A stretch of 32,196 bases of DNA, taken from NCBI GenBank assembly GCA_903930255.1, contig CAIYYA010000262.1:1-32196 (forward strand). The letters run 5' to 3'. The notes below the pieces were generated by a model. It did no database searches. It was given only the letters and a program-made list of their open reading frames with translations, and was not told the origin of the DNA. The translations under genes and the position numbers were made by a program. Numbering within the stretch: the first letter of the stretch is position 1; each line of letters starts with the position of its first letter. Positions 5,535 to 25,627 of the stretch are shown here, piece after piece. This stretch comes from an uncultured beta proteobacterium (GTDB lineage: Bacteria; Pseudomonadota; Gammaproteobacteria; Burkholderiales; Burkholderiaceae_C).

Positions 5535-5537
5535 TCA
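5535..5537 (-). other. In-frame TGA dividing bcsE into two reading frames
   Basis: The minus strand reads ...FFYMDPN, TGA, GSLAKQ, then the ATG at 5516, all in one frame. The N-terminal RecA-like domain of BcsE ends just before this stop and the receiver-like domain begins just after it. This is either a recent nonsense mutation, a natural split into two cotranslated subunits, or a sequencing error. Confidence 0.8.
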
Positions 5538-6320: not shown

Positions 6321-6355
6321 TGATTCAACTTTCTCTTTTTAACATTTTATGATAA

Positions 6356-6384
6356 TTGAAATTGTGCAGGCCTGCGCATATTTT
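6356..6384 (+). promoter_or_regulatory. Candidate sigma70 promoter with palindromic spacer
   Basis: TTGAAA (6356-6361) and TATTTT (6379-6384) are separated by 17 bases in the divergent gap between bcsE (minus) and the lipoprotein gene (plus). The spacer contains the perfect 10-base palindrome GCAGGCCTGC (6366-6375), a possible operator. Initiation near 6391 would place the start site after the upstream ATG at 6349, supporting ATG 6433 for the downstream gene. This is prediction by eye only. Confidence 0.4.
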
Positions 6385-6432
6385 GTTAAAGTGCAAAAAC
6401 AAATTAACGCCATACTAACGGCTCAAACCAAC

Positions 6433-9200: not shown

Positions 9201-10208
9201 ATGAACCACAAATTCCTCAATAAAGCATTCAAGGCCACCTTGCTCAGCTATGTTGTCTTGATTACCAACGTGGCTGTATCGCAAACATCGACTTCATCGG
9301 TCGTGGTTGGCAAAGACGACTGGTTATTTACACGCTACGAATTCGCTACTCCCGATGACGCACAAGACACCCAGGCCACAATTTCTCTGTTGACAAGCAT
9401 TAGTAAGCTCTTTGAACAGAAAGGCATCGCATTAGTCATGACCATGGTTCCATCAAAAATTAAGATTCACTCAGAATTCTTACCTGATGGAACTTCTGTG
9501 GATGCTTACACCGCTGGCAAATATGAGAGTGCCGTGAAAGTATTACAAACTTCGGGCGTAAATTTTGTCAATTTGAATCAACCCTTTCTTGCCAGCCAGC
9601 ACCGCCGAGGTGATACGACCATATTTTTGCATCAAGACACACATTGGTCTCACACAGGCGCGTTGCTTGCTGCTGAAACCATCAAGGCACAAATAGATAA
9701 AACCCCAGCATTAAAAGCAACACTTGAATCCATACCTGAAGAAAAATACACCCTTACTTGGGCCACCAATAAGGTTTCCACTCGTGCCCGAGATCTGGTC
9801 AAACTCATGCCAAAAGACTCCCCTGCTTACCCAACCGAAAAAGTTTTGCCCTTTAAGGTTGGTCGAGTCAATGAGTCAAAAGCAGGCTTGCTGGGTGGCT
9901 CCGATACGACCTTGATCACCGTGATAGGAAGTAGTTACGCAAACAAAAATACGGGTTACCCTGATGGATTGCGCTATACCTTGCAGCGAAACCTTCTGGA
10001 TATATCAATACCGGTTGATCAGGGCCCTTGGGTCGGCATGGAAGCCTACTTGCGCGATGACGCCTTCAAAACAAATAAACCAAAACTGATAATTTGGGAA
10101 ATCCCAGAACGCGAGCTACGCTCACCACCAAACTACAAGTACAGGGATGCTCGATACGTGATCGAAAATAACGCCTGGCTTAGCAAAGTTACCGAACTAC
10201 TTCGTTAA
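9201..10208 (+). CDS. AlgJ/AlgX-like SGNH O-acetyltransferase, secreted
   Basis: The 335 residues have an N-terminal signal segment (MNHKFLNKAFKATLLSYVVL..) ending near VAVSQ. An AlgJ/AlgX catalytic domain follows: VVVGKDDWLF, the Asp-His pair in QDTHW (D146, H148) and the Ser in GSSY (S245). The C-terminal signature WEIPERE is also found in the other two copies. The family transfers or relays acetyl groups onto periplasmic polysaccharide. It lies in the block 6433-13053, 40 bases after algF and 15 bases before the next deacetylase. No clear ribosome site precedes ATG 9201. It is clearly a paralogue of 12004-13053 and more distantly of 13064-14203. I cannot tell AlgJ-type from AlgX-type because no carbohydrate-binding module is evident. 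Confidence 0.8.
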   Translation: MNHKFLNKAFKATLLSYVVLITNVAVSQTSTSSVVVGKDDWLFTRYEFATPDDAQDTQATISLLTSISKLFEQKGIALVMTMVPSKIKIHSEFLPDGTSVDAYTAGKYESAVKVLQTSGVNFVNLNQPFLASQHRRGDTTIFLHQDTHWSHTGALLAAETIKAQIDKTPALKATLESIPEEKYTLTWATNKVSTRARDLVKLMPKDSPAYPTEKVLPFKVGRVNESKAGLLGGSDTTLITVIGSSYANKNTGYPDGLRYTLQRNLLDISIPVDQGPWVGMEAYLRDDAFKTNKPKLIIWEIPERELRSPPNYKYRDARYVIENNAWLSKVTELLR

Positions 10209-10223: not shown

Positions 10224-11981
10224 ATGTTGCGTTATTTTGTATCAATTTTGGCTTTTTTTATTGTATCTTCTACCGTAATAGAGGCAAACGCAGGATCAGA
10301 ATACCCGGTTTACCTTTATCTAAGTCCGCACACTGAGACCTATTTAAAAACAATTGGCGCTTCGTATGAAGACACTTTGGTGCGCTGGAGACAATACCTT
10401 AAAAAAAAATACCGACGAAATTTCAAAGAAATTGGACGAACTGAGTTATTAGGCAAACTTGAGTCAGGAGTGCTGGTTCTAGCCTCCGCACAAGCCCTCG
10501 ACATCGATGAAAAAAATGCAATTAGTCGCTTTGCATCCACAGGGGGTAGCCTCCTTGCGACCTGGGCGACTGGTCTGCGTGACGCGCATGGCATCGCCAG
10601 AGGTTACGGATTCATCGAAAACATGTTTAATGCACGTATTCTTGGACAGTTCAGTTCGGAGGGTGGCTTATTTTTGATGCCTTTTGGTGATGGACCACTG
10701 ACCTGGGGCTTGCCGGCCGGCCGACGAATGGCCATTGGGAGCGCTCCCAAAGAGGTGCTGCGCATGCATTCTGATCATCTTGCAGCTGTCTACATGAATT
10801 GGATACGCGCTAAAGATGAAGTTGGTCCAAACGGGGCGATTGCATTTCACGAATCAGCGTTATACCGAGGGGTGTATTTCTCCTTTCCTGAAACTGTTTG
10901 GGGCTATCACCCGCAAGCAGACATGAACCTTTTGCTTGATGGGACGCTAGATTGGCTTCGCCGTGAACCTAGAGTTTTCAAGTCTGCCTGGCCTGATGGC
11001 AAAATTGCTGCACATTTGATTGAAATGGACACCGAATTTGAATTTTTTTCAGCGCCAACCTTAGCAAATCACCTCGAAAGCATTGGAGCAAAGGGCACGT
11101 TTTATTGCCTCACGTCTGAAGCCATTCGTTATCCTGAAATTGTCAAAAATCTATTTGCCCGAGGTCATGAAATAGCCTACCACGCAGATATTCATACGGG
11201 GTTTAAATCACTCGCGGCAAACACTCAGGAAAAACGCATTCAAACCATGAGAGAACAAATGCGCAGTATTCTTGGTGATGATGTTCATGCAGCAACTGGA
11301 TTCAGAGCACCGACGGAAAGCTACGATGCGACGACCGAGGCCTTACTACGCAAATATGGAATACTGCATCATGCTGCTGATCCCAGCGCGAGTCAGGACA
11401 GATTGCCATTTTTTTCGCTAGCAGAATCAAATCTGGATGCCAATCGCGCGCTTGTCGTGCTGCCACGTACTCAACTTGATGATGTGAATTTCAAGCGACT
11501 TATTTATGGCACTGAACGCATAGAATCGAACTTGGCACATGACCTTGACATGATCGTCATGAGTGGTGCTTTTGGGCTACTCTCTGTGCACTCACAAAAT
11601 TATGTAGAAGATGGACTGATGCGACCGATTCTGGCGCGCTATATGGGCAAGGTTGCAACCTACAAGGATGTCTTATGGGTGGCTCGTGGCGATGAAATTT
11701 CAGCTTGGTGGCGTAATCGTGAAAAAGTCAGCATCACTCACACATCGCAAACTGATCAACTTAACTTTGTGATGACAGTCGAAGGAACTTCCAGTGTGAA
11801 GGGATTGACCGTATTTGTGACGCACCCAATCATGAACGCTGTGCCAATTATTGCAGCCAAAGAGAACACTTCGATCAAGTTTCTGATCAAACCAATAGAT
11901 ACCCAGAGATCTGCCCTGATATTTGATGAACTTAATTCCGGAAAATACGCTTTTTCTGTGAAATTTAAGCCTTCACGTTAA
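10224..11981 (+). CDS. Polysaccharide deacetylase-like protein with intact NodB motifs, secreted
   Basis: The 585-residue protein has a signal peptide (MLRYFVSILAFFIVSSTVIEANA). An amidotransferase-like domain contains GVLVLASAQAL and GGSLLATWATGLRD. The NodB-type domain retains IEMDTE (D269), YHADIH (H320, H324), GFRAPTESYD (R361) and SVHSQN (H456). A small C-terminal beta domain follows (about 500-585). The spacing of the first motifs matches the protein at 1-1363. The probable role is periplasmic or cell-surface N- or O-deacetylation of the exported glycan. The first motif is D-T-E rather than the common D-D, so exact chemistry is uncertain. It forms a pair with the SGNH protein 22 bases downstream, mirroring the 6433/9201 pair. 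Confidence 0.8.
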   Translation: MLRYFVSILAFFIVSSTVIEANAGSEYPVYLYLSPHTETYLKTIGASYEDTLVRWRQYLKKKYRRNFKEIGRTELLGKLESGVLVLASAQALDIDEKNAISRFASTGGSLLATWATGLRDAHGIARGYGFIENMFNARILGQFSSEGGLFLMPFGDGPLTWGLPAGRRMAIGSAPKEVLRMHSDHLAAVYMNWIRAKDEVGPNGAIAFHESALYRGVYFSFPETVWGYHPQADMNLLLDGTLDWLRREPRVFKSAWPDGKIAAHLIEMDTEFEFFSAPTLANHLESIGAKGTFYCLTSEAIRYPEIVKNLFARGHEIAYHADIHTGFKSLAANTQEKRIQTMREQMRSILGDDVHAATGFRAPTESYDATTEALLRKYGILHHAADPSASQDRLPFFSLAESNLDANRALVVLPRTQLDDVNFKRLIYGTERIESNLAHDLDMIVMSGAFGLLSVHSQNYVEDGLMRPILARYMGKVATYKDVLWVARGDEISAWWRNREKVSITHTSQTDQLNFVMTVEGTSSVKGLTVFVTHPIMNAVPIIAAKENTSIKFLIKPIDTQRSALIFDELNSGKYAFSVKFKPSR

Positions 11982-12003: not shown

Positions 12004-13053
12004 ATGAAAAATACCACTCAATTGAAACGAAGTCGACGCACATTTATTGCCAAATTGGCGCTATTTTTGACTTTTAGTTCTGTCGTTACAGCTTTTGCTG
12101 CAGATTCATTGGAGCAATACCCGGGTATTATTGGCAAAGATGAATGGCTTTTTTACCGAAACGAGTTAACAAGCTCAGAAGACGCACCAGGCGCAAAGAA
12201 CTCACTCTCGCTGATTCAACAATTTAATCAGGTATTGCAAAAAAAGGGTGTTCAACTATTAATTGTGATGGTGCCCATAAAAATGCGCATCCACGAGGAG
12301 CACTTGCCTGACGACATCAAAATCAATGATTACATGCGCAGCAATTATGAGCGCATGCTAGCAACTCTTCGTTCGTCTGGCGTCACCTCAGTCGATTTAA
12401 ATACAGCCTTCCTTAAAAGTCCGCACCGAACCAGTGATACCCCGTTGTTCTTTCGATTAGACACGCATTGGGCAAAAACTGGCGCGATGCTCGCAGCAGA
12501 AACTATCGGTGCAGAAATTCTCTCTAATCCTGTCCTCAAGAACACGATCAGTCAAATTCCTACTCAATCCTACACACTCACTACCGGCAAAGCCAAGGGC
12601 GCCACAAGGAGCAGAGATATCCTTCAGTTGCTTCCTCCAGATTCACCAGCCAGAAAATACCCTTACGAGAGATATTTTTCTATGTCAGTTAGTCGTACTG
12701 ACGTGAATAATTCTGATTTATTGGGAAAGCAGGAATCTCCTGATATTGGCTTGGTAGGTAGCAGTTACACCATTGATTGGACTGGCTTTGCCGATGGCTT
12801 GAGATATTCATTACAAAAAAATATCTTTAGCATTGGTGTCAGCGCCACCCAGGGATCCTGGGTGGGCATGGAAACCTATTTGCGTGACGATGCATTTCAA
12901 ACCAATCCTCCCAAATTATTGCTTTGGGAAATCCCCGAGCGCGATATGTACGCACCGCCTGATTACAAATATCGAGAAGCGCGCTATATTTTGTCCAACG
13001 CTGAATGGCTAAAGCGAGTGACGGATTTGGTCAACAAAGCCCCTACTCCCTGA
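12004..13053 (+). CDS. AlgJ/AlgX-like SGNH O-acetyltransferase, second plus-strand copy
   Basis: The 349-residue protein has a basic n-region and hydrophobic signal ending near TAFA. It is colinear with 9201-10208: GIIGKDEWLF, LDTHW (D153, H155), GSSY (S254) and WEIPERD. The two proteins share long near-identical stretches, for example WVGME.YLRDDAF and PPxYKYR.AR, so they arose by duplication. It is the last gene of the plus-strand block. It converges on the alginate-type algJ at 13064 with only 10 bases between stop codons, and no hairpin terminator fits there. Both catalytic dyad and Ser are present, so it is predicted to be active. Confidence 0.8.
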   Translation: MKNTTQLKRSRRTFIAKLALFLTFSSVVTAFAADSLEQYPGIIGKDEWLFYRNELTSSEDAPGAKNSLSLIQQFNQVLQKKGVQLLIVMVPIKMRIHEEHLPDDIKINDYMRSNYERMLATLRSSGVTSVDLNTAFLKSPHRTSDTPLFFRLDTHWAKTGAMLAAETIGAEILSNPVLKNTISQIPTQSYTLTTGKAKGATRSRDILQLLPPDSPARKYPYERYFSMSVSRTDVNNSDLLGKQESPDIGLVGSSYTIDWTGFADGLRYSLQKNIFSIGVSATQGSWVGMETYLRDDAFQTNPPKLLLWEIPERDMYAPPDYKYREARYILSNAEWLKRVTDLVNKAPTP

Positions 13054-13063: not shown

Positions 13064-14203
13064 TCAGTGGACTGCCAGCTGTTGGGTCTTGAGCCAGGTT
13101 GATTCCTGCGTCAGGGGCAAAGTCATAAACCGCTCCGGCACCTCCCAAACGATCACTTGCGGTGGCTCGGTCTTGAAAGCTTCATCTTTCAAATAATCTC
13201 CAGTCGCCTGCAAAAAGCCCCCCCCGTCTTTAGCGGCATTGAGAACCTGACTCGACAAGGCTTGTTGCAGGTGGCCATGGAAATTGCCCCTCAGCGAATA
13301 CGATGTGCCGGTCAAAACCACCGCTACGGCGCTTCCACCAAACAGGCTATTTTGTGACGTTGAGCTGATGGCATCGATTTTTTGTATTGCCTCTTGATCC
13401 GGCAAAGGCCGTAACCAATTTGGCACCTGCTCAAGCCCCATAAGCCGAATCAGGTCGCCGGCACGCTCACTGGCAGTGGTTGCCTGCACAATTCTGTAAG
13501 CCGTGTCGCCCAACGGCACCTGCATTTCACGTAATCGTTTGGCTAACGCCAGCGCAGCCACCTTGGCACCCACCTGATTCCAATGCGTATCCGTTCGGTA
13601 ATACACCTCTTGGGTTTTCGCTGCGTCTTGCAAGACAGTTAATAAATCAAGCACCGCAACACCGTGGCTTTGCAGGCCGGCAATGGCCGCCTGGTAACGC
13701 ATCGCGTTATATTCTGGGTAATGCCCTGTGGGCAAATACTGCTCATAAATCCGGGCTTTGTCGGGCACTACAGCCAGCAATAGTTGAACCCCTTTGCCTT
13801 GCAAGGCGTGCGCAGTTTGCCCTAGCAAACTCAACCTAGCCGCCATGTTGCGCTGTGCCTGCGCATCGTATTGCAACTCTTCTGTCAAAAACAACCAATC
13901 AGAGCGACCAACACGAACCTGCTCATTAGCACCTTGCAACAAGCTAAAACGCAGCGCGTTGGCACTCGCAATCAGAGAACTGCGTGCAGGCATTTTTTGG
14001 TCGATTTGTTTTTCTATAGCACCGGTTGTTCTTCCTTCCCGAAAATCAGATGCGGCTTGCGGAATCACCATATCCGACCATTGACCGATTGCTGAAGCAA
14101 ACTGCCATAAACCGGCAAGCATGACACCGACAAGAACACCTGCTGCCCAATGTGGCAAGCGTGTTTGCAACTGCACCGGGGCTTCTTGTTGAGTTGAATT
14201 CAT
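13064..14203 (-). CDS. algJ: AlgJ-like membrane-anchored O-acetyltransferase partner of AlgI
   Basis: The 379 residues begin with a cytosolic tail and one membrane anchor (about 18-40). An SGNH domain follows: VGRSDWLFL, RTDTHWNQVGA (D205, H207), GTSYS (S301) and WEVPERF. The gene starts 7 bases after algI, the usual algI-algJ arrangement, and is last in the long minus-strand operon that begins with bcsD. In alginate and acetylated-cellulose systems this protein accepts acetyl from the MBOAT and passes it to the polymer in the periplasm. A G8 run (13218-13225) lies in the coding strand near the C-terminal third. It is more diverged from the plus-strand copies than they are from each other. 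Confidence 0.85.
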   Translation of the reverse strand: MNSTQQEAPVQLQTRLPHWAAGVLVGVMLAGLWQFASAIGQWSDMVIPQAASDFREGRTTGAIEKQIDQKMPARSSLIASANALRFSLLQGANEQVRVGRSDWLFLTEELQYDAQAQRNMAARLSLLGQTAHALQGKGVQLLLAVVPDKARIYEQYLPTGHYPEYNAMRYQAAIAGLQSHGVAVLDLLTVLQDAAKTQEVYYRTDTHWNQVGAKVAALALAKRLREMQVPLGDTAYRIVQATTASERAGDLIRLMGLEQVPNWLRPLPDQEAIQKIDAISSTSQNSLFGGSAVAVVLTGTSYSLRGNFHGHLQQALSSQVLNAAKDGGGFLQATGDYLKDEAFKTEPPQVIVWEVPERFMTLPLTQESTWLKTQQLAVH

Positions 14204-14210: not shown

Positions 14211-15596
14211 TCAAAATTGAAAGTACAAAAATGGAGTAAACGATTGCGCCGATAAGGTAGCTACAGCCCACAAAAACAGCGGCAATATGGCATACCGCAG
14301 CGGTCCACCAGCATGCCGCTTCAGCCACGGCATGGCATACACAAGTACTATGCCCAATAGCCCGATTGACAAACGCTCAGGTGTGATATGCCAACTCATT
14401 GGGGCACTCAACGCCCAACCTTGCAGCCCCCCCATCCCCGCGAACATACGTCCTGCAGCCTCTATGTCTAGGGCACGAAACATGACCCAGCCAATGATGA
14501 CCAGCAGCATGGTTTTCATAACACGCAACCAGTCGGGCAGACGCGATGGCCCATAACGTTGCTCCAAAAACCGCTCCAAAGCCAAAATGGCGCCATGCCA
14601 GGCGCCCCACAAGACAAATGTCCAATTGGCTCCGTGCCACAAACCACCCAGCAGCATGGTTAAAAAAAGGTTGATGTAGGTTCGCAACACGCCTTTACGG
14701 TTACCCCCGAGCGAGACATACAAATATTCGCGCAACCAATTTGAAAGCGACATATGCCAACGCTTCCAAAACTCAGTGATCGAGCGCGAGGTGTAGGGAT
14801 CGTTGAAGTTTTCCGGAAATACAAAACCGATCATCAGCGCCAGCCCAATGGCCATGTCGGTATAGCCACTGAAATCAAAAAAGAGCTGGATCGTGTAAGC
14901 TCCCGCTCCCAACCAGGCATCGACCAGCGTCGGCGCTGGCAACGCAAAGGCCGCATCAGCCAACGGCGCCACGGTGTCGGCAATGAGCACTTTTTTACAA
15001 AACCCAACCATGAAGATCAAACTTCCACGCGAAAACCGTGTCATCGAATGCACGCGGCTTCTAAACTGCTCAGCGAGCAAGTGGTAGCGCAACACGGGTC
15101 CCGCCACCAAGTGGGGAAACAGCGCAATAAAGGCGGCAAAGTCGATCAAGTTACGCGCGGGCGGTGCTTCCTTGCGGTAAATATCCACCAAATAGCTGAT
15201 CGCGTGAAAGATGTAAAACGACAAACCTATCGGCAAAATGACGTGGGCAAACTCTATTGGCTCAAATCCTGCCGATTTAAGCGCAGCGTTGAAGCTTGCC
15301 ACACCGAAATTGGCATATTTGAAGTATGCCAAGGCGAGCAAATTCAATGTAACGCCGGCTGTCAGCCACCTGAACCGCTTAGCTTCAATGGACGTATGAT
15401 CGATCGCAAGAGCAATCACATAACTCATCAAAGTCACCGCCACCAGCAGTCCCAAAAAATCGGGACGCCACCAAGCATAGAAAAAATAACTGAAAAGCAA
15501 GATCAGAAAAGACTTGGCACGCCAAGGTGTCAGGTAGTAGCTGAGCAAAAAAATCGGCAGAAACGCAAAGAGAAAAATATTGGAACTAAAAACCAT
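14211..15596 (-). CDS. algI: AlgI/WssH-type MBOAT O-acyltransferase
   Basis: The 461-residue multi-span membrane protein opens MVFSSNIFLFAFLPIFLL, typical of AlgI. Conserved features include LPIGLSFYIFHAISYLVDIYR, FFDFSGYTDMAIG, FWKRWHMSLS.WLR.YLY and the catalytic GGLWHGANW (H321). It moves acetyl from a cytosolic donor across the inner membrane to AlgJ-like acceptors. The start ATG 15596 has GAGA about 8 bases upstream. It lies 46 bases after the GH18 gene, the largest gap in this operon, and 7 bases before algJ. It is a full-length member with no missing motif, and it is the single acyl-importer that could feed all three AlgJ/X-like proteins in the window. Confidence 0.93.
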   Translation of the reverse strand: MVFSSNIFLFAFLPIFLLSYYLTPWRAKSFLILLFSYFFYAWWRPDFLGLLVAVTLMSYVIALAIDHTSIEAKRFRWLTAGVTLNLLALAYFKYANFGVASFNAALKSAGFEPIEFAHVILPIGLSFYIFHAISYLVDIYRKEAPPARNLIDFAAFIALFPHLVAGPVLRYHLLAEQFRSRVHSMTRFSRGSLIFMVGFCKKVLIADTVAPLADAAFALPAPTLVDAWLGAGAYTIQLFFDFSGYTDMAIGLALMIGFVFPENFNDPYTSRSITEFWKRWHMSLSNWLREYLYVSLGGNRKGVLRTYINLFLTMLLGGLWHGANWTFVLWGAWHGAILALERFLEQRYGPSRLPDWLRVMKTMLLVIIGWVMFRALDIEAAGRMFAGMGGLQGWALSAPMSWHITPERLSIGLLGIVLVYAMPWLKRHAGGPLRYAILPLFLWAVATLSAQSFTPFLYFQF

Positions 15597-15642: not shown

Positions 15643-16758
15643 TTACTGAAACTGTTTGAACAATGCATCAAGATTTTTCGGGCCTCGACGCTGCAAATAA
15701 TAGTCCAGCAACTCGTTTTTGTCGTAACCCAATACAAAGAACGCAACACCACCGAGTTTTTCTTGCGTCAATAAATCAAATTTGCGGCCCAGCGACCACC
15801 AATCTTCAAACCAAGCTTCCACCCATTGCCCTTGATCGTTCTTGAATTTATAAAACGAAGAACCTGTAGAGGGATCATGCTGGGCGCCATATTGCGCGAC
15901 ACGTTCCTTTACGCTGATTCGAATATCTGGCATCTGCTCTTGCGTCAAGGCAGCAAAGGTGGAAATATTTCCAGCTTTGAGCGTCTTACTGCGCAGTTTG
16001 GCATCTGTCACAGGCCATTCATAGCCATAAAACGGAAAAGTCAACACCAACTGCTCACTGCGCACGCCCAATGCCAACCCATCCACGACGGCTGACTTCC
16101 ATGTCAAAGCGTCTGATCCTTGCAATGGCGCTATTGGCCCCGCATTGGGACTGCTTTTGTAATGCGTATCGTAGCTTTGCAGCACAACGTCATTCATCAG
16201 TTTGAGCGTTTCAGCATCGTACAAAGGACTCTCCGATTTGACAGGTACAAAAACAGACAAATGCCTCGCTGGTTGCAATTGCTTGAGCTTTTCTGACAAT
16301 CGTCTGAGAGCTTGGCGATAACGACCAATGGCAACAGCGTTGGCACCACTGTAAATTTCGAAATCAAACTGAAGACCGCTCACTGAGCTGGAAGTTGCCA
16401 GCTCTAGACAATTCAGCTCAAAGTGGCGCACCGCATCATCGGACGAGAACAGCGTATTAAAAACACCCACATCAAAAAGTGTCAGGGTCAAATCAATCGG
16501 TAAATTGTTTTTTTGGGCCGATTTTTGTAATTCAACCCATTCTTCTGGCCAGCCGTGGCGCTCAACAATCGCACCCGTAACATCGACCTTGAGTTCAAAA
16601 AAAAACAAACGATCCAACTGAGCCAATGGAGCGCTGCGCCAGCTCTCAGGCAGCCACCAAGCCTGATAAGCAAAAGCTTTGAGAGGCTGACTACCGGACG
16701 GCAGTTGCCAAAGTGCCAGCAACAACAAAAACAACCCGCGGCTTAGCAGCAACCTCAT
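15643..16758 (-). CDS. GH18-like glycoside hydrolase, secreted
   Basis: The 371-residue protein has a signal peptide (MRLLLSRGLFLLLLALWQLPSGS). Its core resembles GH18 chitinase/YaaH-type barrels: SGLQFDFEIYSG holds the end of the DxxDxDxE motif (D132, E134 as acid/base), FPFYGYEW, and a C-terminal AWFEDWWSL....LGGVAFFVLGYD. The first two Asp of DxxDxDxE are absent, but the catalytic Glu and the Asp two before it remain. GH18 enzymes act on GlcNAc-containing polymers. Its ATG overlaps the stop of the second parA (ATGA). In cellulose operons the equivalent slot holds the GH8 cellulase BcsZ, so this suggests a different polymer. It could also be a non-catalytic GH18-like binder. Confidence 0.7.
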   Translation of the reverse strand: MRLLLSRGLFLLLLALWQLPSGSQPLKAFAYQAWWLPESWRSAPLAQLDRLFFFELKVDVTGAIVERHGWPEEWVELQKSAQKNNLPIDLTLTLFDVGVFNTLFSSDDAVRHFELNCLELATSSSVSGLQFDFEIYSGANAVAIGRYRQALRRLSEKLKQLQPARHLSVFVPVKSESPLYDAETLKLMNDVVLQSYDTHYKSSPNAGPIAPLQGSDALTWKSAVVDGLALGVRSEQLVLTFPFYGYEWPVTDAKLRSKTLKAGNISTFAALTQEQMPDIRISVKERVAQYGAQHDPSTGSSFYKFKNDQGQWVEAWFEDWWSLGRKFDLLTQEKLGGVAFFVLGYDKNELLDYYLQRRGPKNLDALFKQFQ

Positions 16759-17504
16759 GGATCGGTACTATTCAGCAACCAGTCAGCGACATATTGAATG
16801 TCCAAACTCGCTTTGCAGCCTGGCTCATAATGAAGCACTGGGCGCTCATAAGCCAGTGCTTGCGCTACCCGCGCATCTCGGTGAATGGCCACCGGAACCA
16901 ATTGGCTGGCATAGTTGGCATAGAGAGCGGTTCTAACCTGATGGCCGAGCTTGCCGTTGACTGGCATTTGATTAATCAACAGATACATGCCAAAAAAATC
17001 AGCACGGTCAACGGTGTACTCCTGAACCAGTGCCGATATTTTCCCAATGGTGGCAAAAGAAGCGGCGTCCGCCAGAATGACAACCAAAGCACGATTCGCA
17101 GCGACCAGCGCCTGATGCAAATAGACCGAAGGACCCGGTGGGGTGTCCAGCACCACATAGTCAAACGCATCCGCACTCAAACTCTGAATACCATCACTCA
17201 CCCAGCGCGGATTTGCTTTGAGTTGGGATTCAAAGTCCTCAAGCTCGGGTTCAGTGACTCGACCAAAGGGGATGAAGCTAACACCATAAGGGCTGTCAAA
17301 AATCGAGCTAGCCGCAATCCCCTCACGCACCAAACCTGCAATTTCATCAGGATCCATTCCCAAATGAAAACGTTGGGCGTTCTGTGGATCCAAATCGATC
17401 AGCAGGACTTTTTTCTTACGCTGCGACAAAGCCGATGCCACATTGGCTGCTAATGTGGTTTTGCCAACGCCACCTTTACCCGAGATGAACGCAATAATGT
17501 GCAT
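16755..17504 (-). CDS. Second BcsQ/MinD-like ParA-family ATPase
   Basis: The 249-residue protein starts at ATG 17504; the longer open frame to 17666 lies inside bcsB and has no family similarity. Motifs are the deviant Walker A GKGGVGKTT near residue 10, LLIDLDPQNAQ, and the switch VVLDTPPGPSVY. It is clearly homologous to bcsQ at 21984-22748: both have LDPQNA, PPGPSVYL and a final YEP.....D. The gene sits 29 bases after bcsB and overlaps the GH18 gene by ATGA. BcsQ-type ATPases localise or assemble the Bcs complex at the inner membrane. Two MinD-like genes also bracket the Wss acetylated-cellulose operon of Pseudomonas (wssA, wssJ), so a duplicate is not unprecedented. Confidence 0.88.
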   Translation of the reverse strand: MHIIAFISGKGGVGKTTLAANVASALSQRKKKVLLIDLDPQNAQRFHLGMDPDEIAGLVREGIAASSIFDSPYGVSFIPFGRVTEPELEDFESQLKANPRWVSDGIQSLSADAFDYVVLDTPPGPSVYLHQALVAANRALVVILADAASFATIGKISALVQEYTVDRADFFGMYLLINQMPVNGKLGHQVRTALYANYASQLVPVAIHRDARVAQALAYERPVLHYEPGCKASLDIQYVADWLLNSTDP

Positions 17505-17533: not shown

Positions 17534-19876
17534 CTAAGATTTTGCTTTGGATTTTGCACGACGCGCGATCAAATTGCGCAGTGGTCGATAAGCAGCAACC
17601 CCCAGCAAAATACAAACTAAAACGGCGATGATGCCAACCCACATGGGATGATCTGCAAAAAGCCACTGCAAACGGCTCAATAAAGACAGCGAGCCAACAT
17701 AATAGGTGGCACTCACCTTCACATGGCTGAGTTCTTTTTCTTGAAAGACTGCCAGGTCTCCCTTGATCGTGCCGACACGTTCAACATCAGTCAGCGCATC
17801 GGTGACCTTTTGCAAATCAAAGGCCTTGTCAGCATGCACAAGAACCACGCTACGACCTGCTTTGAGGGGCGACTCAAAGGCCATGAGAGTCGCCAAATCC
17901 CCCCCCCCCATCAGATTCAACTCACCTTTCGGTTGTGGCACGAAATGCACGTCTTTTTGTTCCCATCGATAGGGCGGCAACCAAGTCGCATCGGGCTCAC
18001 GCACTCGACGCTCACCATTGACTTGCACCAAAGGCAAACGATCAGCCCATTTACTCATCAACGCCTGGCTATTGGCCGAGCCAATCACCAGCAGGTCTTT
18101 ATCTGCCACTGAATCGATTTCAGCAGCCATCAGCAGCGTGTGACGCAGCCCTGGGTAGCCGGTAGATTCCGCCATGCGCCCCATCAGCGCCAGATAAACA
18201 CTGATTTCGCTCGCGTTGGGTCGATCCGGCATGATCACAGCCGTTTCGGACAAGTCAGCTAAGCGGGTATAGGGAAACCCGATATTGGCAAAATAGGCGA
18301 GGTTTGGCAGTGCTGTGTAATGCGGAAAAATACTAAAGTCAAGCGTCGATTCAGGGTCAATTGCGCCTTGCAGGTTTTCAGGCGGCATGTTTTGGCATTC
18401 GCCATGTTTCAAAATATCGAAAAAATAACTCAGCTGCAATTGATCACGACCCGCCAACGCATAGGGCGGCAAAAACAATAAATCACTGCGTTTGGACATG
18501 TAATCACTGCCCACCAGATTCAGACGGTTACTGTCCTCCCCATTTTTCAGAGGCATATTCAACGGCAACGCATGAATGAAGTCATTGTTCAAGCTGATAT
18601 TCAGGCTGGAGCTCTTGTGCTCAGGCAAGCGTGTGTATCGGTACTTCAGGTTAAGCGGAACACCGGGTGTGCGCCAAGTGAAAAGGTCGGGAGCCAAGCG
18701 GTAGTTCAAGCGCACCACCTCGGGATACCAACCTTGCACACGCAACTCTTCTGGACGAGTCAATTCACCAAAACGAACCGGCCGATCCAACGGCACCCAG
18801 GCAGGTGCATCGTAAGGTTTACGTGGCGAAATTTCTATTTCTTTGGAGACCGTGACCGATGCGCCAGCCAAGCTCTTGCTAACCATGGCAATAGCCCGAG
18901 CCGAACGCAACAACTCAGCCTCATTGGATCCGGTCACAACCAACAGCTTTGCCAAAGGATTGACGGGGTGGGTTATCACACTCAAAGTAGGTCCAGGTGC
19001 ACTTTCAACACCCGTGATTTTTTCTCCAGCACCGACAAAAACGACTGCATTTCCATCTGGCAACGTATTCATCAGCGCCGGGAATTGCGCGCCCCGAGCG
19101 CCAGCTTGCATGGCAAACCAAGCAGCCACAAAACCGGCTGCCTTGAGCGTGCCAGGTGCCGGATTTGCAGAAAAAACAAACGGTAGCTTGAGTTGTGCAT
19201 CATCCCGCTTATCAAAGAACGGGGCTGGCAAAAATTTCAAGTCATTGGTGACTATTTTGGGCGCCAGCGTTAACTCTAGTCGACCCAAATCACTCAGAGT
19301 CAACCACAGTGACGAGTGAAAAGGATCTTCACATTGGCGCGTGTAATGTGCGATCAGGTTGAAGCGCAAATAGTTCACGTCACTGAACTGGCGTGGATCC
19401 AGATCAATATCACGATTGTTCCCCAGGTTTTTCCCCAACGGCAACGCCTCTACCGTGGCCACACGTTCATTCAGCAAAATCCTCAAATGACTCAACTCCG
19501 GTATCAATGCCGGGGAATAGTCATACTGCAGTTTTAGCTTGGCCGCCACCACCATTTCATCAGAGCGAACCGAAAAAGACAAGGTTCTGGAGCCATCCGC
19601 GCCTTTGACATTCACCGACGACCATGCCCCTAATTGTTTAAAACTCAGTGAAACAACACGTTGCGCATTCGATTTAACCAACGACACTCCGGTCACAGCA
19701 CTCGCAGCAGCGACCGAATTCACCTCGACAACCTCTTCCACTGCCTGAGTTTTCTTGGATTTTTTGGCTTTCGCCTGAGCTGAAAAACTCGCAAAGACCA
19801 CACCAAAGGCAATAACCAATGTAAAAAAGCCAATAACAATTCGCAATTTGCCCCAGGTGTTAACAATTGACTTCAT
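17534..19876 (-). CDS. bcsB: BcsB, periplasmic polysaccharide-guiding subunit of the Bcs complex
   Basis: The 780-residue protein has an N-terminal signal/membrane segment (about 10-33) and a K/A-rich linker. Alternating carbohydrate-binding and flavodoxin-like domains follow, with one C-terminal membrane helix (about 745-768, MWVGIIAVLVCILLGVAAYRPL). Length matches E. coli BcsB (779). Recognisable stretches include LSFKQLGA.....VKG, QFSDVNYLRFNLIAHYTRQCEDPFHS (residues split here for brevity: FRFNL-type strand then C-E-D-P) and YP.TRLADL. ATG 19876 overlaps the bcsA stop (ATGA) and has GGAAGA upstream, so it is preferred over an earlier start at 19891. BcsB normally pairs with BcsA through its C-terminal helix. 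Codons 656-660 contain a run of 11 G, upstream of that helix. Confidence 0.92.
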   Translation of the reverse strand: MKSIVNTWGKLRIVIGFFTLVIAFGVVFASFSAQAKAKKSKKTQAVEEVVEVNSVAAASAVTGVSLVKSNAQRVVSLSFKQLGAWSSVNVKGADGSRTLSFSVRSDEMVVAAKLKLQYDYSPALIPELSHLRILLNERVATVEALPLGKNLGNNRDIDLDPRQFSDVNYLRFNLIAHYTRQCEDPFHSSLWLTLSDLGRLELTLAPKIVTNDLKFLPAPFFDKRDDAQLKLPFVFSANPAPGTLKAAGFVAAWFAMQAGARGAQFPALMNTLPDGNAVVFVGAGEKITGVESAPGPTLSVITHPVNPLAKLLVVTGSNEAELLRSARAIAMVSKSLAGASVTVSKEIEISPRKPYDAPAWVPLDRPVRFGELTRPEELRVQGWYPEVVRLNYRLAPDLFTWRTPGVPLNLKYRYTRLPEHKSSSLNISLNNDFIHALPLNMPLKNGEDSNRLNLVGSDYMSKRSDLLFLPPYALAGRDQLQLSYFFDILKHGECQNMPPENLQGAIDPESTLDFSIFPHYTALPNLAYFANIGFPYTRLADLSETAVIMPDRPNASEISVYLALMGRMAESTGYPGLRHTLLMAAEIDSVADKDLLVIGSANSQALMSKWADRLPLVQVNGERRVREPDATWLPPYRWEQKDVHFVPQPKGELNLMGGGDLATLMAFESPLKAGRSVVLVHADKAFDLQKVTDALTDVERVGTIKGDLAVFQEKELSHVKVSATYYVGSLSLLSRLQWLFADHPMWVGIIAVLVCILLGVAAYRPLRNLIARRAKSKAKS
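17899..17909 (-). repeat. Homopolymer G11 tract inside bcsB
   Basis: The plus strand shows eleven consecutive C; the coding strand therefore reads ATG GGG GGG GGG GAT (M656 to D660). The frame is open at this length. Runs this long are prone to slipped-strand errors; gain or loss of one base would truncate BcsB before its C-terminal membrane helix. Confidence 0.9.
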
Positions 19877-21987
19877 GTTTTTTTCTTCCACTTCGTATTC
19901 ATTTGTGCAACTGCCAGCTTAATCGAACGTTTCGTTATGCTAAACCACAGCACACCAAGGCCACGCCCCAATCCTTCTATCGCCTTCATTAAACCATTCG
20001 GAAATATTTGATCAACCCGTTCTGCTGGTAACCATGCCGGCCAGTTGGATCCACGAGCCAATGCCGCCTGGGTAAACGCCTCGTATTGTGACTTGCTGGC
20101 TGGTTCTATGCACAAATCGACGCCAGACAGACCGACAGAAAGCACTTGTGCATCAAAAACAAATTCGTTGTAAGACTGGAAAATCGATAGTTGAATGGAT
20201 TGATTGGGCTCCAACTGGGCACCAGGTGGCAAACTTAAATGCAAGTTGACTGCCGGAAAATTGGATGTCTTACAACTTAAGGTTCGATTATTTTGCAGGC
20301 GAATCATGGCTGGCATTACTCTCAATGCCCGTTTATGTCGGGCAATTTCTTGGGTCTCACGAATCACTGCGTAGCGAGCAGCCATAACCATCACCACCAG
20401 AGCAGACCAGCCCAGATAAAAACCCAATGACTGCAGCTGTTCACCATTGGCGTGCAGCATCGTCCACCCCCCCCATAGCCACGCACAAGCATGCAGCCCT
20501 GCCAAACCACGCCATGCAACGGACTCCAAGGCAGGCGACTTCGATACCGTCTGTTTCAGTTCAGCGTTGCGCGCCTGTTTACGCTCGCGAAACTGCGTCA
20601 AAACCACAAAGATACTGGTCAGAACAAATATGTAGAGTGCTAGTAACAACTCCTGAAGTTCAATCAATAAAGGTAGGCGTTTTTTGGATTCCAGCCGGTT
20701 TGCCAAGAGCCAGGATTGTCCCCAATGGGGTACTAAATAGACTAATATGACCGGCACCGGCGACTGCACAGGTGCAATATTGGCCAGCAAATACAGTAAA
20801 GGCAACGTCAACAGCGCCAATGGCAACAAAGGGCGATAAAACGCCAGCACCGGGTTGGCAGCTTCCAATGCCATACGCCACCGCACAGCAGCGCCTGGAT
20901 AGGGATTAAGCAGCCCCCTGATTTGCTGGTTGTGCTTCACCACACAAATGTGACCCCAGCCGCTTTCCCTCAATCGGTTGGCCAGATGCTGGTCAACAGG
21001 ATCAATTGGCACGCCACCACACGACACCAGTACCGAGCGTTTTGCCACCAAAAACTCTGATTGTGTTCCCGATTCGCAGAACTCAAGTCGCAATGATTCT
21101 GTCAAAGCAGGGAGTAAAAAATGCTGCGCGGTGCTAACCAAGCCAAGCGCAGCTTCAGCCTGGAGCCAGCCTGCACTCAGACGTAAAAATTCATGCGCAG
21201 GCACATGCCCGGCCTGCAAAACAGCAATCAACTCCTCTTTGGAGTCCAATAATGCCCGGTTAATCAACCCTGCATTGCCGAGCAAAACTTCAGAATAAGT
21301 TAAATAGCTGGCTCGAAGTTCAGTGCAAATGCGCCGCAAATCAGCGCGATCAGTGGCATCCAAAACATAGATATTCAACCGATCTTGCTGCAATTTCAAA
21401 CCAGTGATGGCACTGATGCTGCGCTCAACATCCACTCTCGAAAATCCGCTAGCCAAAATAAACACGCCCAAACGCGGCTGCACAGCTAAACCTTCTGCGG
21501 AATCGACCCGGCTCAACCAAGCAGGCCAAAGTCGCTGCAAGGCATTGCAAACAAAGATAAAAACCCCGTAAAACTCCAGCAGAAGCAAGCCTAAGCGCAC
21601 AAAATAATCAACACTGTAGGCAGGAGCCAGTGAGTCCAGCAAACGCCAATCCAGGTAGCGAGCGGTACTGATGATGGCCATGCCTGCCAGCATCAAACTG
21701 ACAGCCTTGCCCTGAAATCGTCGAATCCAGAATGAAGCAGCAAAGAGCATCACTGAAAAAATAGTTTGCTCTGTCAGCGTAAATCGCACCGTCATCAAAA
21801 GTAAGGTTAGCCCAACAAATCCGGCGAGTGCCAGCAGACCTACACCTGGCAAACGCCCTGCCAGTGATTGCTGCCAGCGCTGATTCCAGTCGCTAATATT
21901 GCTGCTTTCGTACGGACAAACCAGATTTTTTGAATCGGCCTTGCCCCAACGCTCGCGCCAAAGCGACAGAAGTTGAAGCGGTGTCAT
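19873..21987 (-). CDS. bcsA: BcsA-like protein lacking glycosyltransferase and PilZ motifs (pseudoenzyme)
   Basis: The 704-residue protein aligns with cellulose synthase BcsA (872 in E. coli): N-terminal membrane helices (about 50-150, including ARYLDWRL), a GT-like domain (170-375), more helices (385-465, 485-545) and a PilZ-like domain (545-645). Substrate and catalytic motifs are gone. The acidic pair after LNI.(I/V)LD is LDAT; HAKAGN is LLGNAGL; DxDHVP is QAGHVP (258-263); TED is PVD (330-332); QRIRW is AAVRW (366-370). In the PilZ domain, DxSxxG is NFPAVN (576-581) and the first Arg of RxxxR is lost. Surrounding structure is well kept and there is no frameshift, so it looks selected as a non-catalytic subunit, not decaying. 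It has ATGA overlaps with bcsQ upstream and bcsB downstream. A G8 run lies at 20467-20474. Confidence 0.88.
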   Translation of the reverse strand: MTPLQLLSLWRERWGKADSKNLVCPYESSNISDWNQRWQQSLAGRLPGVGLLALAGFVGLTLLLMTVRFTLTEQTIFSVMLFAASFWIRRFQGKAVSLMLAGMAIISTARYLDWRLLDSLAPAYSVDYFVRLGLLLLEFYGVFIFVCNALQRLWPAWLSRVDSAEGLAVQPRLGVFILASGFSRVDVERSISAITGLKLQQDRLNIYVLDATDRADLRRICTELRASYLTYSEVLLGNAGLINRALLDSKEELIAVLQAGHVPAHEFLRLSAGWLQAEAALGLVSTAQHFLLPALTESLRLEFCESGTQSEFLVAKRSVLVSCGGVPIDPVDQHLANRLRESGWGHICVVKHNQQIRGLLNPYPGAAVRWRMALEAANPVLAFYRPLLPLALLTLPLLYLLANIAPVQSPVPVILVYLVPHWGQSWLLANRLESKKRLPLLIELQELLLALYIFVLTSIFVVLTQFRERKQARNAELKQTVSKSPALESVAWRGLAGLHACAWLWGGWTMLHANGEQLQSLGFYLGWSALVVMVMAARYAVIRETQEIARHKRALRVMPAMIRLQNNRTLSCKTSNFPAVNLHLSLPPGAQLEPNQSIQLSIFQSYNEFVFDAQVLSVGLSGVDLCIEPASKSQYEAFTQAALARGSNWPAWLPAERVDQIFPNGLMKAIEGLGRGLGVLWFSITKRSIKLAVAQMNTKWKKKT

Positions 21988-22748
21988 TGATTGATCGTGT
22001 CAATAACCCAGCTTGCCAGACGCGCCAAGTCAACGCTGGCTTGGCCATGGGGCTCGTAGTCGAGCACCGGTTGCTGGAACGCTAACGCCTCACCCACAGC
22101 CTCGTCAGCATGAATCTCGATCGGGCAAATACGGTTTCGCAGTTGCTGGCGAAGATACGCTGCAGTATCCCGATTGAGCGACTCACTGCGGTCAACTTGA
22201 TTGAGTAAATAAAACACTTTGCATCCAGCTTGGGTGTTATTAGTCTCAGCCAGCCAGGACTCCATTGCAGGAATGGTTGCATAGGAACCCGCATCGGCCA
22301 GCAACACCACTAGAACTAAATCAGCACAGGCGAACACCTGTTTCAGATAAACCGAAGGACCTGGCGGAGAGTCCACGATGACGATCGCGTCATTACTCAA
22401 ACCCGCACGCGCGATCTGTTCGCCAACCCAGTTTGGATGCAGTGCCAACAATGCCTCATAAGCCTCGCGATCAGCCTCAGAAACCGAGCCAAAAGGCAAA
22501 CAAGCCACATGGGCTGGGCTTTGCAACAATCCTTCACGCCAATCTGCTGAGCGTAAAGACTGCTCGCAGGCTCCGCCCGAATCATCGTCCGCCAAACCAA
22601 AATGCCAATGAAGTGCATTTTGCGGATCTAAATCAACCACACTTACCCGGTCTGGACCCAATTTTGCGACCATTGCAGCCGCCAAATTAGCTGAAGTCGA
22701 GGTTTTTCCAACCCCTCCCTTCATAGACACAACGCCCACAATACTCAT
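21984..22748 (-). CDS. bcsQ: BcsQ, MinD/ParA-family ATPase of the Bcs complex
   Basis: The 254-residue protein has the deviant Walker A MKGGVGKTS near residue 9, VVDLDPQNALHWHFG (Walker A' region and the BcsQ-typical continuation), VDSPPGPSVYLKQ, and a C-terminal LDYEPHGQASVDLARLA. In Enterobacteria BcsQ is needed for cellulose secretion and binds BcsR and BcsE at the inner membrane. The start ATG 22748 overlaps the bcsP stop by ATGA and the stop overlaps bcsA in the same way, so translation is coupled across bcsP-Q-A-B. It is homologous to the second copy at 16755. No unusual residues were seen. Confidence 0.93.
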   Translation of the reverse strand: MSIVGVVSMKGGVGKTSTSANLAAAMVAKLGPDRVSVVDLDPQNALHWHFGLADDDSGGACEQSLRSADWREGLLQSPAHVACLPFGSVSEADREAYEALLALHPNWVGEQIARAGLSNDAIVIVDSPPGPSVYLKQVFACADLVLVVLLADAGSYATIPAMESWLAETNNTQAGCKVFYLLNQVDRSESLNRDTAAYLRQQLRNRICPIEIHADEAVGEALAFQQPVLDYEPHGQASVDLARLASWVIDTINQ

Positions 22749-23596
22749 CGCCTCGCCAGTCGTCCTAGGAACGATGATTTCTTGACCGAGGAAGTTTGAG
22801 ACTCCGGTTTTTTAGGCGCCTGCAAACGACCAAAAAGACTTTTTAATGATTCTGTAGAACGTTGCGCCTCTTGCACCACAGTCGCTTTCGCCATAGAAAT
22901 TTTGGCTGCTGGCGCAACGGGTGCACTGCTGAGCACCTGTGCAGACACCGAGGCAGAGGCCGGTGCAGCGCTTAATTTAGGTGCCACTTTCGCAAGCGTC
23001 AATTTGGCAGGCGGCTCAGCGGGTTCGCTTGGTGGCGTGGACCGAGTTTGCAGCATAGGCACGGCTTGAGCTATTGGTTCTGGTGGCAACCGTGGCGCAA
23101 TAGGCAGACGCACAGGAGGCGGCAAATCTGGCGCCACTTGAGTGGGAGCCTTTGGGCTAGGTCGACTAATTGGCGCAGGCTCCAAAGGCGCTTTGGCAAG
23201 CAGAATCGGAGCGGCTTCAGCCTGTGGGTTCGGCTCTACCAACACCGGTGCTGCACTGCGTGCCGAAGATTTGGATTGAGCACGTGAACCAGCGCGTGAA
23301 CTCGGTTTACGGCCAACCATTTTGCTTAAGCCCTGAGCCAACTGCTCGTTCAGCCCAGGCATCGACAAGGCTGGCGCACGCTGAGAGCCGGCAGTCGTCT
23401 TGGAGCTTGCGCGATTTGTCTTCTCTTCCTCTGTCAAGGAGGGCGCCGCAGAGGGCTTAACGGGGGCAATTGCCCGAAAAAGAGGCCAGCGCTGCTCAGC
23501 ATCTTTGCCGGCAGCTGTGGCCACACTCGCTAAAGGTGCTTCGTTAGGGCGCAGTGATTTGAAAATGGGCGAGAGCTTGTCTGCTTGGGATGCCAT
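22745..23596 (-). CDS. bcsP: BcsP-like protein: BcsR-type N-terminal motif and Pro/Ala-rich linker
   Basis: The 283-residue protein has an N-terminal segment ending in EQRWPLFRAIAP (about residues 34-46), resembling the RWPLL core of BcsR (CBP_BcsR family). A long low-complexity Pro/Ala/Ser-rich region follows. The C-terminus carries ESLKSLFGRL and a final SSFLGRLARR. There is no membrane segment or enzyme motif. BcsP precedes bcsQ in many beta- and gammaproteobacterial bcs operons; BcsR-type segments bind BcsQ. The start ATG 23596 is fixed by a strong ribosome site (AGGAGA about 7 bases upstream). The gene follows bcsD by 33 bases. Low complexity makes similarity outside the N-terminus uninformative. 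Confidence 0.75.
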   Translation of the reverse strand: MASQADKLSPIFKSLRPNEAPLASVATAAGKDAEQRWPLFRAIAPVKPSAAPSLTEEEKTNRASSKTTAGSQRAPALSMPGLNEQLAQGLSKMVGRKPSSRAGSRAQSKSSARSAAPVLVEPNPQAEAAPILLAKAPLEPAPISRPSPKAPTQVAPDLPPPVRLPIAPRLPPEPIAQAVPMLQTRSTPPSEPAEPPAKLTLAKVAPKLSAAPASASVSAQVLSSAPVAPAAKISMAKATVVQEAQRSTESLKSLFGRLQAPKKPESQTSSVKKSSFLGRLARR

Positions 23597-23629: not shown

Positions 23630-24103
23630 TCAAGCGCCTTGCGGCCCGAACTGAAGCGATACCAGCATGTCGGCACAAGCTTCATCCAACGCATGAACCT
23701 TCATCGACTCTCCAGCACCGAGCACCACAAAGATGCTCTGATAAAAACCCTCTAGCAATCCCACCGTCCAGAGCAGATGCTCGTCGCCAAACGCCTCCGC
23801 AAGCGGTAGCGCCTGGTGCTCAATCTGAATATGGCCTTTCGACTCTGAAAAGCTGACCCAACCCCAGTTCAGTTGAGCCCAAAACTCATTCAGTGCTTCT
23901 TCAAGTTCTGACAAAGTCTGCACAGACTCAAAGCGCTCTTGAACATCCTTCGCAAAACGTTCACCCACTTTGAAAAAAAGTTGCCTCAGCGCTGCACTGT
24001 CCGCACTGGCGGTCAGTTCCAGAGCCAACGCGCGCAACACAGGTAACCATTGAAGCGAAACCTGTTGTCCCCGAAAATAATTTTCAAAACCGGCATTTGA
24101 CAT
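23630..24103 (-). CDS. bcsD: BcsD, cellulose synthase accessory subunit D
   Basis: The 157-residue protein matches the BcsD family in length and pattern: FRGQQVSLQWLPVLRALALEL near the start, then EEALNEFWAQLNWGWVSF (about 85-102), PLAEAFG, LEGFYQSIF and GAGESMKV. In Komagataeibacter, BcsD forms a periplasmic octamer that organises glucan chains. Here no signal peptide is present, as is usual for BcsD. ATG 24103 is preferred to the TTG two codons earlier because GAAAG lies about 8 bases upstream. It is first in the long minus-strand operon and divergent from ampG. A typical cellulose-crystallising subunit beside an inactive BcsA is notable. Confidence 0.88.
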   Translation of the reverse strand: MSNAGFENYFRGQQVSLQWLPVLRALALELTASADSAALRQLFFKVGERFAKDVQERFESVQTLSELEEALNEFWAQLNWGWVSFSESKGHIQIEHQALPLAEAFGDEHLLWTVGLLEGFYQSIFVVLGAGESMKVHALDEACADMLVSLQFGPQGA

Positions 24104-24276
24104 AAACAACTTTCAAGCACAATAACATTAACACAAATTAATAGCAGACTATAGTTGATTTTATTAGCTTTAGTGGACATTCGTTGCATCAAATCAACAA
24201 TACTTTGACGGCCTTTGCTGAGCATATGGCAAGCCAATTACTTAATTTTCTAACTGCCGCTTATGATTCTTCACCC
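24104..24276. promoter_or_regulatory. Divergent intergenic region between bcsD and ampG
   Basis: This 173-base AT-rich gap must hold the promoter of the nine-gene bcs-alg operon (minus) and probably that of ampG (plus). The part next to bcsD (24110-24180) is strongly AT-rich. I could not fix a convincing -35/-10 pair or operator on either strand. The open frame of ampG extends into the gap to a TTG at 24184, which I consider non-coding. Confidence 0.4.
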
Positions 24277-25611: not shown

Positions 25612-25627
25612 TGAATAAGCTTAGACA

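Follow-up and report, generated by a model that had tools for sequence, protein, structure and literature searches.

A contig of 32,196 nucleotides from an uncultured beta proteobacterium of the order Burkholderiales (CAIYYA010000262.1, assembly GCA_903930255.1), here called the window, carries on its minus strand a gene (19873..21987) for a homologue of the cellulose synthase subunit BcsA in which both the catalytic and the cyclic di-GMP (c-di-GMP) motifs have been lost. The status of this BcsA homologue as a pseudoenzyme (pseudo-BcsA) is well supported by alignment. We regard it as about an even call that the conserved pseudoenzyme serves, in the inner membrane, as the adaptor of a re-tooled cellulose-secretion (Bcs) machine, with the polymer predicted to come from a PgaC-like family 2 glycosyltransferase (GT2) encoded at 1598-2953 and not from BcsA. 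The partnership between this GT2 and the pseudo-bcs genes is suggested by their shared distribution among related genomes.

The open reading frame (ORF) of pseudo-BcsA comprises 704 codons, encodes 704 amino acids and has zero internal stops. It overlaps both of its neighbours by four bases (ATGA), namely bcsQ (21984-22748) and bcsB, whose start ATG is at 19876. E. coli BcsA matches the window protein with a phmmer E-value of 3e-48, in a match that spans two stretches. Because of this value and the family of conserved relatives described below, chance is excluded, and by sequence comparison the protein is a true BcsA homologue. The NCBIfam models CelA (TIGR03030) and PRK11498 (NF008558) score it at 195.9 and 200.8 bits, respectively, against cut-offs of 699.1 and 992. 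All five other pseudo-BcsAs scanned likewise remain below the BcsA cut-offs, and both canonical BcsAs scanned exceed them. In a predicted structure, the overall fold is recovered, with the transmembrane (TM) helices, the GT-A domain and the PilZ barrel all present.

Among the DDG, DxD, TED and QxxRW motifs, alignment with canonical BcsAs leaves the window protein with two catalytic residues, D210 and D332. The canonical LDDG reads LDAT, with the first Asp retained (D210) and the second replaced (A211), DCD reads QAG (258-260), and D332 alone remains of the TED site. The QxxRW segment corresponds to an alignment gap, i.e., it is deleted, and the FNVTxKGG gating loop is gone. The c-di-GMP motif DxSxxG is replaced by NFPAVN (576-581), and RxxxR has become AxxxR, with A549 in place of the first Arg. 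A sequence-only reading of this DNA had already described the 704-codon frame, its ATGA coupling to bcsQ and bcsB and a BcsA homologue with the fold kept, all of which are confirmed, with the strand being minus. The replacements that it listed also hold for DD (to DA), DCD (to QAG), DxSxxG (to NFPAVN) and TED, but not for QRIRW. The supposed remnant AAVRW (~366-370) was rejected, as in the alignment it falls at the beginning of the following membrane part while the QRIRW segment is gapped.

We aligned 22 pseudo-BcsAs with 31 canonical BcsAs. The two groups were sorted by the presence of TED and QxxRW, so the counts for these two motifs are not independent evidence; those for DDG, DxD, the gating loop and NFP, and the single split in the tree, are independent of the sorting. 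Canonical BcsAs carry DDG, DxDH, TED and QxxRW in 31 of 31 cases each. In pseudo-BcsAs, the first Asp of DDG is present in 22/22 and the second in 4/22, DxD is intact in 4/22, TED and QxxRW are each present in 0/22 (R and W are gapped in 21), and the gating loop is present in 0/22. At the site where canonical BcsAs have D/E/N/Q-x-S, all 22 have NFP, and RxxxR is intact in 5/22 compared with 24/31 canonical proteins. Pattern matches to DxDH or DxSxxG in four pseudo-BcsAs were discarded, as they are positioned elsewhere in the chain and not at the motif sites. Neither TED nor QxxRW was found in four further members (G436, G450, G454 and G577). The replacement residues vary among species, and no new conserved site is formed.

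Hosts of pseudo-BcsA include Rhodoferax, Polaromonas, Hydrogenophaga, Noviherbaspirillum galbum, N. malthae, and further metagenome-assembled genomes (MAGs) of Comamonadaceae and Burkholderiaceae, and the proteins span Comamonadaceae and Oxalobacteraceae as a single group. A quick, unrooted tree of 53 proteins has one change between pseudo and canonical types, on one branch with support of 100; L064 forms a long branch. Rows L001 (a duplicate of the window), L015, L023, L069, L070 and L082 were dropped from this tree, and P0012, a near copy of P0011, was omitted from it yet included in the alignment (A1). The canonical profile (A2) included the window protein, whose A2 score is inflated as a result. 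Motif loss specific to this strain is ruled out by the pseudo-BcsA relatives.

Ratios of nonsynonymous to synonymous change (dN/dS, Nei-Gojobori) indicate that pseudo-BcsA is under purifying selection, though looser than that on canonical BcsA. The three least saturated pseudo-BcsA pairs give 0.26, 0.265 and 0.23 (dS 0.14, 0.68 and 1.05), and more distant pairs, one of them saturated, give 0.13 to 0.35, compared with 0.05, 0.08 and 0.17 for three canonical pairs (dS 0.38, 1.33 and 1.25). BcsB yields 0.08-0.12 in three usable pseudo-locus pairs versus 0.10, 0.11 and 0.23 in canonical-locus pairs, and BcsQ yields 0.07-0.11. No frameshift or stop was found within the pseudo-BcsA copies examined. 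With motif loss across the family, where none of the 22 aligned or four additional members retains TED or QxxRW, and dN/dS of 0.23-0.27, well below 1, the earlier proposal of a selected, non-catalytic subunit is therefore supported.

The distribution of constraint within the protein also differs. Canonical BcsAs have their highest mean identity in the GT domain (0.67) and TM5-8 (0.56), whereas pseudo-BcsAs have theirs in the N-terminus (0.54) and the C-terminal segment (0.51), followed by PilZ (0.39), the GT domain (0.33) and TM5-8 (0.33). Overall identity among pseudo-BcsAs is ~30% where that of BcsB is ~60%. At a matched BcsB identity of 0.59-0.61, the canonical pair G027/G018 has values of 0.79 (GT) and 0.77 (TM5-8), compared with 0.22-0.31 for two pseudo pairs, and the N-terminus is at 0.42 in the canonical pair versus 0.50 in the pseudo pairs. 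These comparisons indicate that the position of constraint in pseudo-BcsA has shifted away from the GT domain and TM5-8.

On the minus strand of the window, the gene order is BcsD, BcsP-like, BcsQ, pseudo-BcsA, BcsB, BcsQ, GH18, AlgI and AlgX, with gaps of -4 to 46. As in Type I/hybrid Bcs operons (BcsPDQ), BcsD, BcsP and BcsQ are all present, with BcsD (23630..24109; PF03500, 68.4 bits, cut-off 23) and the first BcsQ copy (21984..22748; TIGR03371, 211.2 bits, cut-off 157.85) identified by profile, and BcsP by its plug motif only. The latter is a proline-rich protein (22745..23596) with an N-terminal FKSLRP...WPLF plug motif that reaches 16 of 55 bits with the NCBIfam BcsP model, below its cut-off. 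BcsB (17534..19876) is full length (PF03170, 699.2 bits, cut-off 21; NF008323, 771.7 bits, cut-off 750). Beyond it lie a second BcsQ copy (16755..17504; TIGR03371, 191.4 bits), a family 18 glycoside hydrolase (GH18) with DxE that replaces BcsZ (GH8) (15643..16758; PF00704, 83.2 bits, cut-off 29.6), an AlgI-like MBOAT O-acyltransferase (14211..15596; PF03062, 120.2 bits) and an AlgX-like acetyltransferase (13064..14203; PF16822, 248.6 bits). The solved chains nearest to the window GH18 are spore germination and cortex-lytic GH18 proteins. BcsC (PF05420), tested for as the outer-membrane component of the window's system, was not found in genome G000 (93.67% complete).

When every ORF was inventoried in 23 pseudo loci and in six canonical loci from the genus, a recurrent gene content emerged. 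The first BcsQ is present in 23/23 pseudo loci, BcsD in 21/23 (the other two, G014 and L058, are cut upstream), and the WPLF-like BcsP plug in 20 of the 21 with the upstream stretch covered, L061 being the sole miss. BcsZ is present in 0/23 pseudo loci versus 6/6 canonical loci, all of which also have a BcsC of 1260-1403 amino acids. Eleven pseudo loci contain a BcsC-like piece no longer than 289 amino acids, two Noviherbaspirillum loci have a ~900-amino-acid tetratricopeptide repeat (TPR) protein that carries no BCSC_C barrel domain, and this inventory gave no BcsC match in the remaining pseudo loci. Nineteen of the 23 extend to the second BcsQ, whereas the stretches of G441, G447, L054 and L066 stop inside BcsB, shortly after it or ahead of it. 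Each of these 19 downstream-covered loci has at least one of GH18 and AlgI, and the catalytic DxE is kept in all 13 loci that have the GH18 gene. As judged from gene content, the pseudo loci have retained BcsB, BcsQ, BcsP and BcsD, lost BcsZ and an intact BcsC, and gained GH18 and/or AlgI/AlgX.

Other genes were observed at the edges of these operons. The window operon is flanked at 24184-27711 (plus strand) by genes for a major facilitator superfamily permease that weakly matches Acatn, a response regulator and a histidine kinase, and similar neighbours occur near the pseudo-bcs loci of several relatives. In G023, a T2SSE/MshEN ATPase gene (Pfam) directly follows GH18 (L028 10164-12776), and a gene alike in size and place only is found at the corresponding position in G010 (L030 13753-16296).

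The GT2 proposed as the polymerase (1598..2953, minus strand) has intact DDG, DGD, AED and QRYRW motifs by profile and motif checks, as do 14 of the 14 orthologues checked. Its best NCBIfam model is PgaC, at 216.3 bits and below the equivalog cut-off of 422.3. On the same strand are a TPR and beta-barrel exporter (2944..4326) with a fold nearest to BcsC, PelB and PgaA (PgaA by its entry 4y25), followed by BcsE in two pieces, a C-terminal one with an RPGD version of the RxGD motif (4332..5516; PF10995, 185.8 bits) and an N-terminal one ended by an in-frame TGA (5535..6320; PF10995, 54.5 bits). RxGD is present in 11/11 BcsE copies read, and BcsE adjoins the GT2 cluster in 13 of the 14 genomes in which the relevant stretch is covered. 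The plus strand encodes two polysaccharide deacetylases (6349..8433 and 10224..11981; PF01522, 27.2 and 52.1 bits), an AlgF-like protein (8459..9160; PF11182, 70.7 bits) and two AlgX-like acetyltransferases (9201..10208 and 12004..13053; PF16822, 182.5 and 205.5 bits). A third deacetylase, on the minus strand (2..1363; PF01522, 30.9 bits), is cut by the window edge. PgaD (PF13994) was not found in 16 of 17 genomes searched, G000 included, and the single positive adjoins other PgaC-like genes. Apart from its cluster GT2, G001 (C83 and C98) has two more PgaC-like genes, each with an adjoining PgaD match, one of which is below the cut-off. In G033 (C80; L120 5610-6324), the start of a second, divergent BcsB adjoins the GT2 cluster, and the contig ends within that gene.

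The distribution of these genes was assessed in 60 genomes of the same genus. An intact PgaC-like GT2 is present in 16 of 18 BcsB-positive genomes versus 0 of 42 BcsB-negative genomes (Fisher p 1e-12, relatedness not corrected), such that GT2 presence agrees with BcsB presence in 58/60. Of the 18 BcsB-positive genomes, 16 have pseudo-BcsA and two have canonical BcsA only. Five carry both pseudo and canonical loci (G018, G033, G034, G437 and G447), and a canonical locus is lacking from the other 11 of the 16 pseudo-bearing genomes, as judged in seven by the absence of any CelA match above cut-off (one of the seven is a single complete contig) and in four (G436, G441, G450 and G454) by a single BcsB locus. 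With a canonical locus in only 5/16, we rejected the idea that pseudo-BcsA in general assists another, canonical BcsA of the same cell. In G577, from another genus of the same family, genes for the porin, GT2, deacetylase, BcsD, BcsP, BcsQ, pseudo-BcsA, BcsB, a BcsC fragment, BcsQ, AlgI and AlgX follow one another on one strand, with gaps of at most 85 bases except for 231 after GT2. Gene content in these genomes thus points to near-strict co-occurrence, and frequent linkage, of the pseudo-bcs genes with the GT2, porin, BcsE and deacetylase genes.

We also searched wider samples of the order (399 genomes), family (399) and class (369), in which the best loci, at most 30 per search, were classified. 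Besides the window's own, the pseudo members among the 30 best loci of the family sample are G010 (same genus) and G577, and none beyond these three appears among the best loci that were classified in the order and class samples. Weaker matches, of which two (in G597 and G494) are split, lie outside this classification. Protein searches scored the 7995 candidates sharing most words, and each gave five proteins, the window's own among them. The pseudoenzyme had been proposed as a standard part of bcs operons. This description fits 16/18 BcsB-positive genomes of the genus, but among the best loci classified from the family sample only G010 and G577 join the window's own; pseudo-BcsA is a standard part only in a subset of Burkholderiales.

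These findings can be accommodated most simply if a Bcs apparatus served BcsA and the GT2 alike, and if the pseudo lineage lost cellulose catalysis while BcsA retained its structural roles. Published E. coli structures show BcsR as a plug in the pocket between GT and PilZ of BcsA, with BcsQ supporting PilZ, and in beta-proteobacterial models the BcsP N-terminus occupies this pocket as BcsR does (PMC11470070). By analogy, pseudo-BcsA would hold BcsB in the periplasm, and its GT-PilZ face would take the BcsP plug and BcsQ, so that the cytoplasmic BcsPDQ scaffold would be linked to the site of export. Control by c-di-GMP would shift to BcsE. The GT2 product is predicted to be, probably, an N-acetylated hexosamine polymer that would be partly de-N-acetylated and O-acetylated, trimmed by GH18 and exported via the TPR porin. 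Polymer identity, protein contacts and the export route are all part of this proposal. Somewhat more tentatively, we suggest that this may be a new type of secretion system, in which a Bcs scaffold (BcsA fold, BcsB, BcsQ, BcsP, BcsD and BcsE) has been captured by another GT2 for a modified amino-sugar polymer, with BcsA as a non-catalytic docking subunit.

Several observations weigh against the adaptor proposal. The AlphaFold model of pseudo-BcsA matches BcsA with a whole-chain template-modelling score of only 0.31-0.37. Genomes G025 and G441 (86% and 75% complete) have pseudo-bcs genes and no GT2 was found in them. The GT2 cluster is also located beside canonical bcs operons in G018, G034, G027, G437 and G447, and is therefore not specific to the pseudo type, and the GT2 and pseudo locus are 63 kb apart in G010, ~1.35 Mb apart in G436 and on separate contigs in G023. 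In G018, G034, G437 and G447, the canonical stretch is without BcsD or the BcsP plug and the pseudo locus has both, so the pseudo locus might there serve the canonical synthase (L047, L048, L158 and L161 compared with L040, L042-L043, L159 and L162, with the canonical side limited to the stretch fetched). One in-frame TGA divides the BcsE of the window (4332-6320, minus strand) into two ORFs, through either a genuine nonsense mutation or an error in the MAG; ten BcsE copies translated from relatives are single ORFs. No BcsE was found in G577 within 16.5 kb upstream, and G014, which has a pseudo locus, has a partial BCSC_C match on another contig. Finally, among the 19 downstream-covered pseudo loci, GH18 is present in 13 and not found in 6, and AlgI is present in 12 (one a piece) and not found in 7.

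Some of these observations would fit a scaffold or envelope structure of pseudo-BcsA, BcsB, BcsQ and BcsP that serves other polysaccharides (an exosortase-type exopolysaccharide (EPS) or the product of canonical BcsA) or none, with the GT2 cluster only a frequent companion. The presence of this cluster beside canonical bcs, the unlinked loci of G010 and G436, and the location of BcsD and BcsP in the two-locus genomes all agree with such an arrangement, as do the pseudo-bcs, AlgI and AlgX genes of G018 and G034 that run into an EPS cluster with a sugar transferase and exosortase, and the pseudo-bcs genes of L058 and L059 that run into the first EPS-cluster genes. (The stretches concerned, with that of G027 below, are L041 4244-19999, L042, L058, L059 and L045 14977-16491.) However, an EPS sugar-transferase gene is also located near the canonical locus of G027, the GT2 tracks BcsB in 58/60 genomes, the G577 genes are contiguous and co-directional, 13/14 have the gene of a Bcs subunit, BcsE, next to the GT2, and 11/16 genomes with a pseudo locus lack a canonical one. 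We consider this explanation unlikely.

The roles first suggested for pseudo-BcsA were a channel, a BcsB anchor or a partner of another synthase. A combination of the latter two appears to fit best. As an export channel, the BcsA TM pore would act with BcsB to conduct through the inner membrane a chain made by the GT2. Long helices at the TM1-4 and TM5-8 places of the predicted model, constraint on BcsB that is about equal beside pseudo-BcsA and canonical BcsA, and a GT2 that has no PgaD partner are compatible with this role. The fit is poorer, however, as TM5-8, at 0.33 compared with 0.56 in canonical BcsA, belongs to the least conserved parts of pseudo-BcsA and the QxxRW segment, like the gating loop, is gone. 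Moreover, processive GT2s such as hyaluronan synthase have their own pore. A channel is thus, in our judgement, rather improbable. Residual or altered sugar transfer by non-canonical residues would be in keeping with the universal first Asp of DDG, the DxD of 4/22 proteins and the predicted GT-A fold, but the absence of TED and QxxRW from 22/22 and replacements that differ between species make it very improbable. There is equally little room for a decaying gene that persists for a time through operon inertia or through use as a spacer in the translation of bcsB. The dN/dS above that of canonical BcsA and the low identity (~30%) point in this direction, but dN/dS well below 1, the lack of disruptions, the wide retention as one group across Comamonadaceae and Oxalobacteraceae and the invariant NFP largely refute it.

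On the strength of BcsB, BcsQ and BcsD genes, such genomes could be taken for those of cellulose producers, although the synthase motifs are lost. If the adaptor proposal is correct, the structural roles of BcsA (holding BcsB and docking BcsP and BcsQ) have been separated from catalysis, and the Bcs complex would be a platform separable from cellulose synthesis. Pseudo-BcsA would then be a processive polysaccharide synthase pseudoenzyme kept as a subunit, and a natural tool for asking what the Bcs accessory scaffold does. In the open-licence PubMed Central literature, judged by titles and the opening lines of abstracts, we found no description of a BcsA that is catalytically dead and serves as an operon subunit, and none of a processive polysaccharide synthase pseudoenzyme kept as a subunit.

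Known systems share parts of this arrangement. The beta-proteobacterial Type I/hybrid bcs operons, as described in excerpts of PMC11470070, encode the same homologue in the same order (BcsD, BcsP, BcsQ, BcsA, BcsB), and the plug is kept; by comparison, the pseudo loci have lost the catalytic and c-di-GMP motifs, have GH18 and/or AlgI/AlgX instead of BcsZ, and have a BcsC that is absent, shrunken or TPR-only. With the PgaABCD system for poly-N-acetylglucosamine, the window shares the linkage of a PgaC-like GT2, a PgaA-like TPR porin and polysaccharide deacetylases, but the GT2 reaches 216.3 of 422.3 bits for PgaC, PgaD is missing, and a Bcs scaffold and BcsE are attached. The Wss cellulose synthase of Pseudomonas is catalytic, unlike the BcsA-like protein described here, which is without catalytic motifs. 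Both the acetylated cellulose (Wss) operons and the window combine Bcs genes with alginate-type O-acetylation genes (excerpts of PMC7112194). The sfz1/sfz2 stalk genes of iron oxidisers, where a BcsB-like protein is paired with a non-BcsA GT2, offer a loose precedent, with a BcsA-like pseudoenzyme unmentioned in the excerpted text (PMC8250860). Lastly, the BcsA-like orphan proteins of pseudomonads resemble pseudo-BcsA in being related to BcsA with a different function, but they are proposed, in the excerpted source, to be active GT2s fused to GH17 that make a cyclic glucan (PMC10237404).

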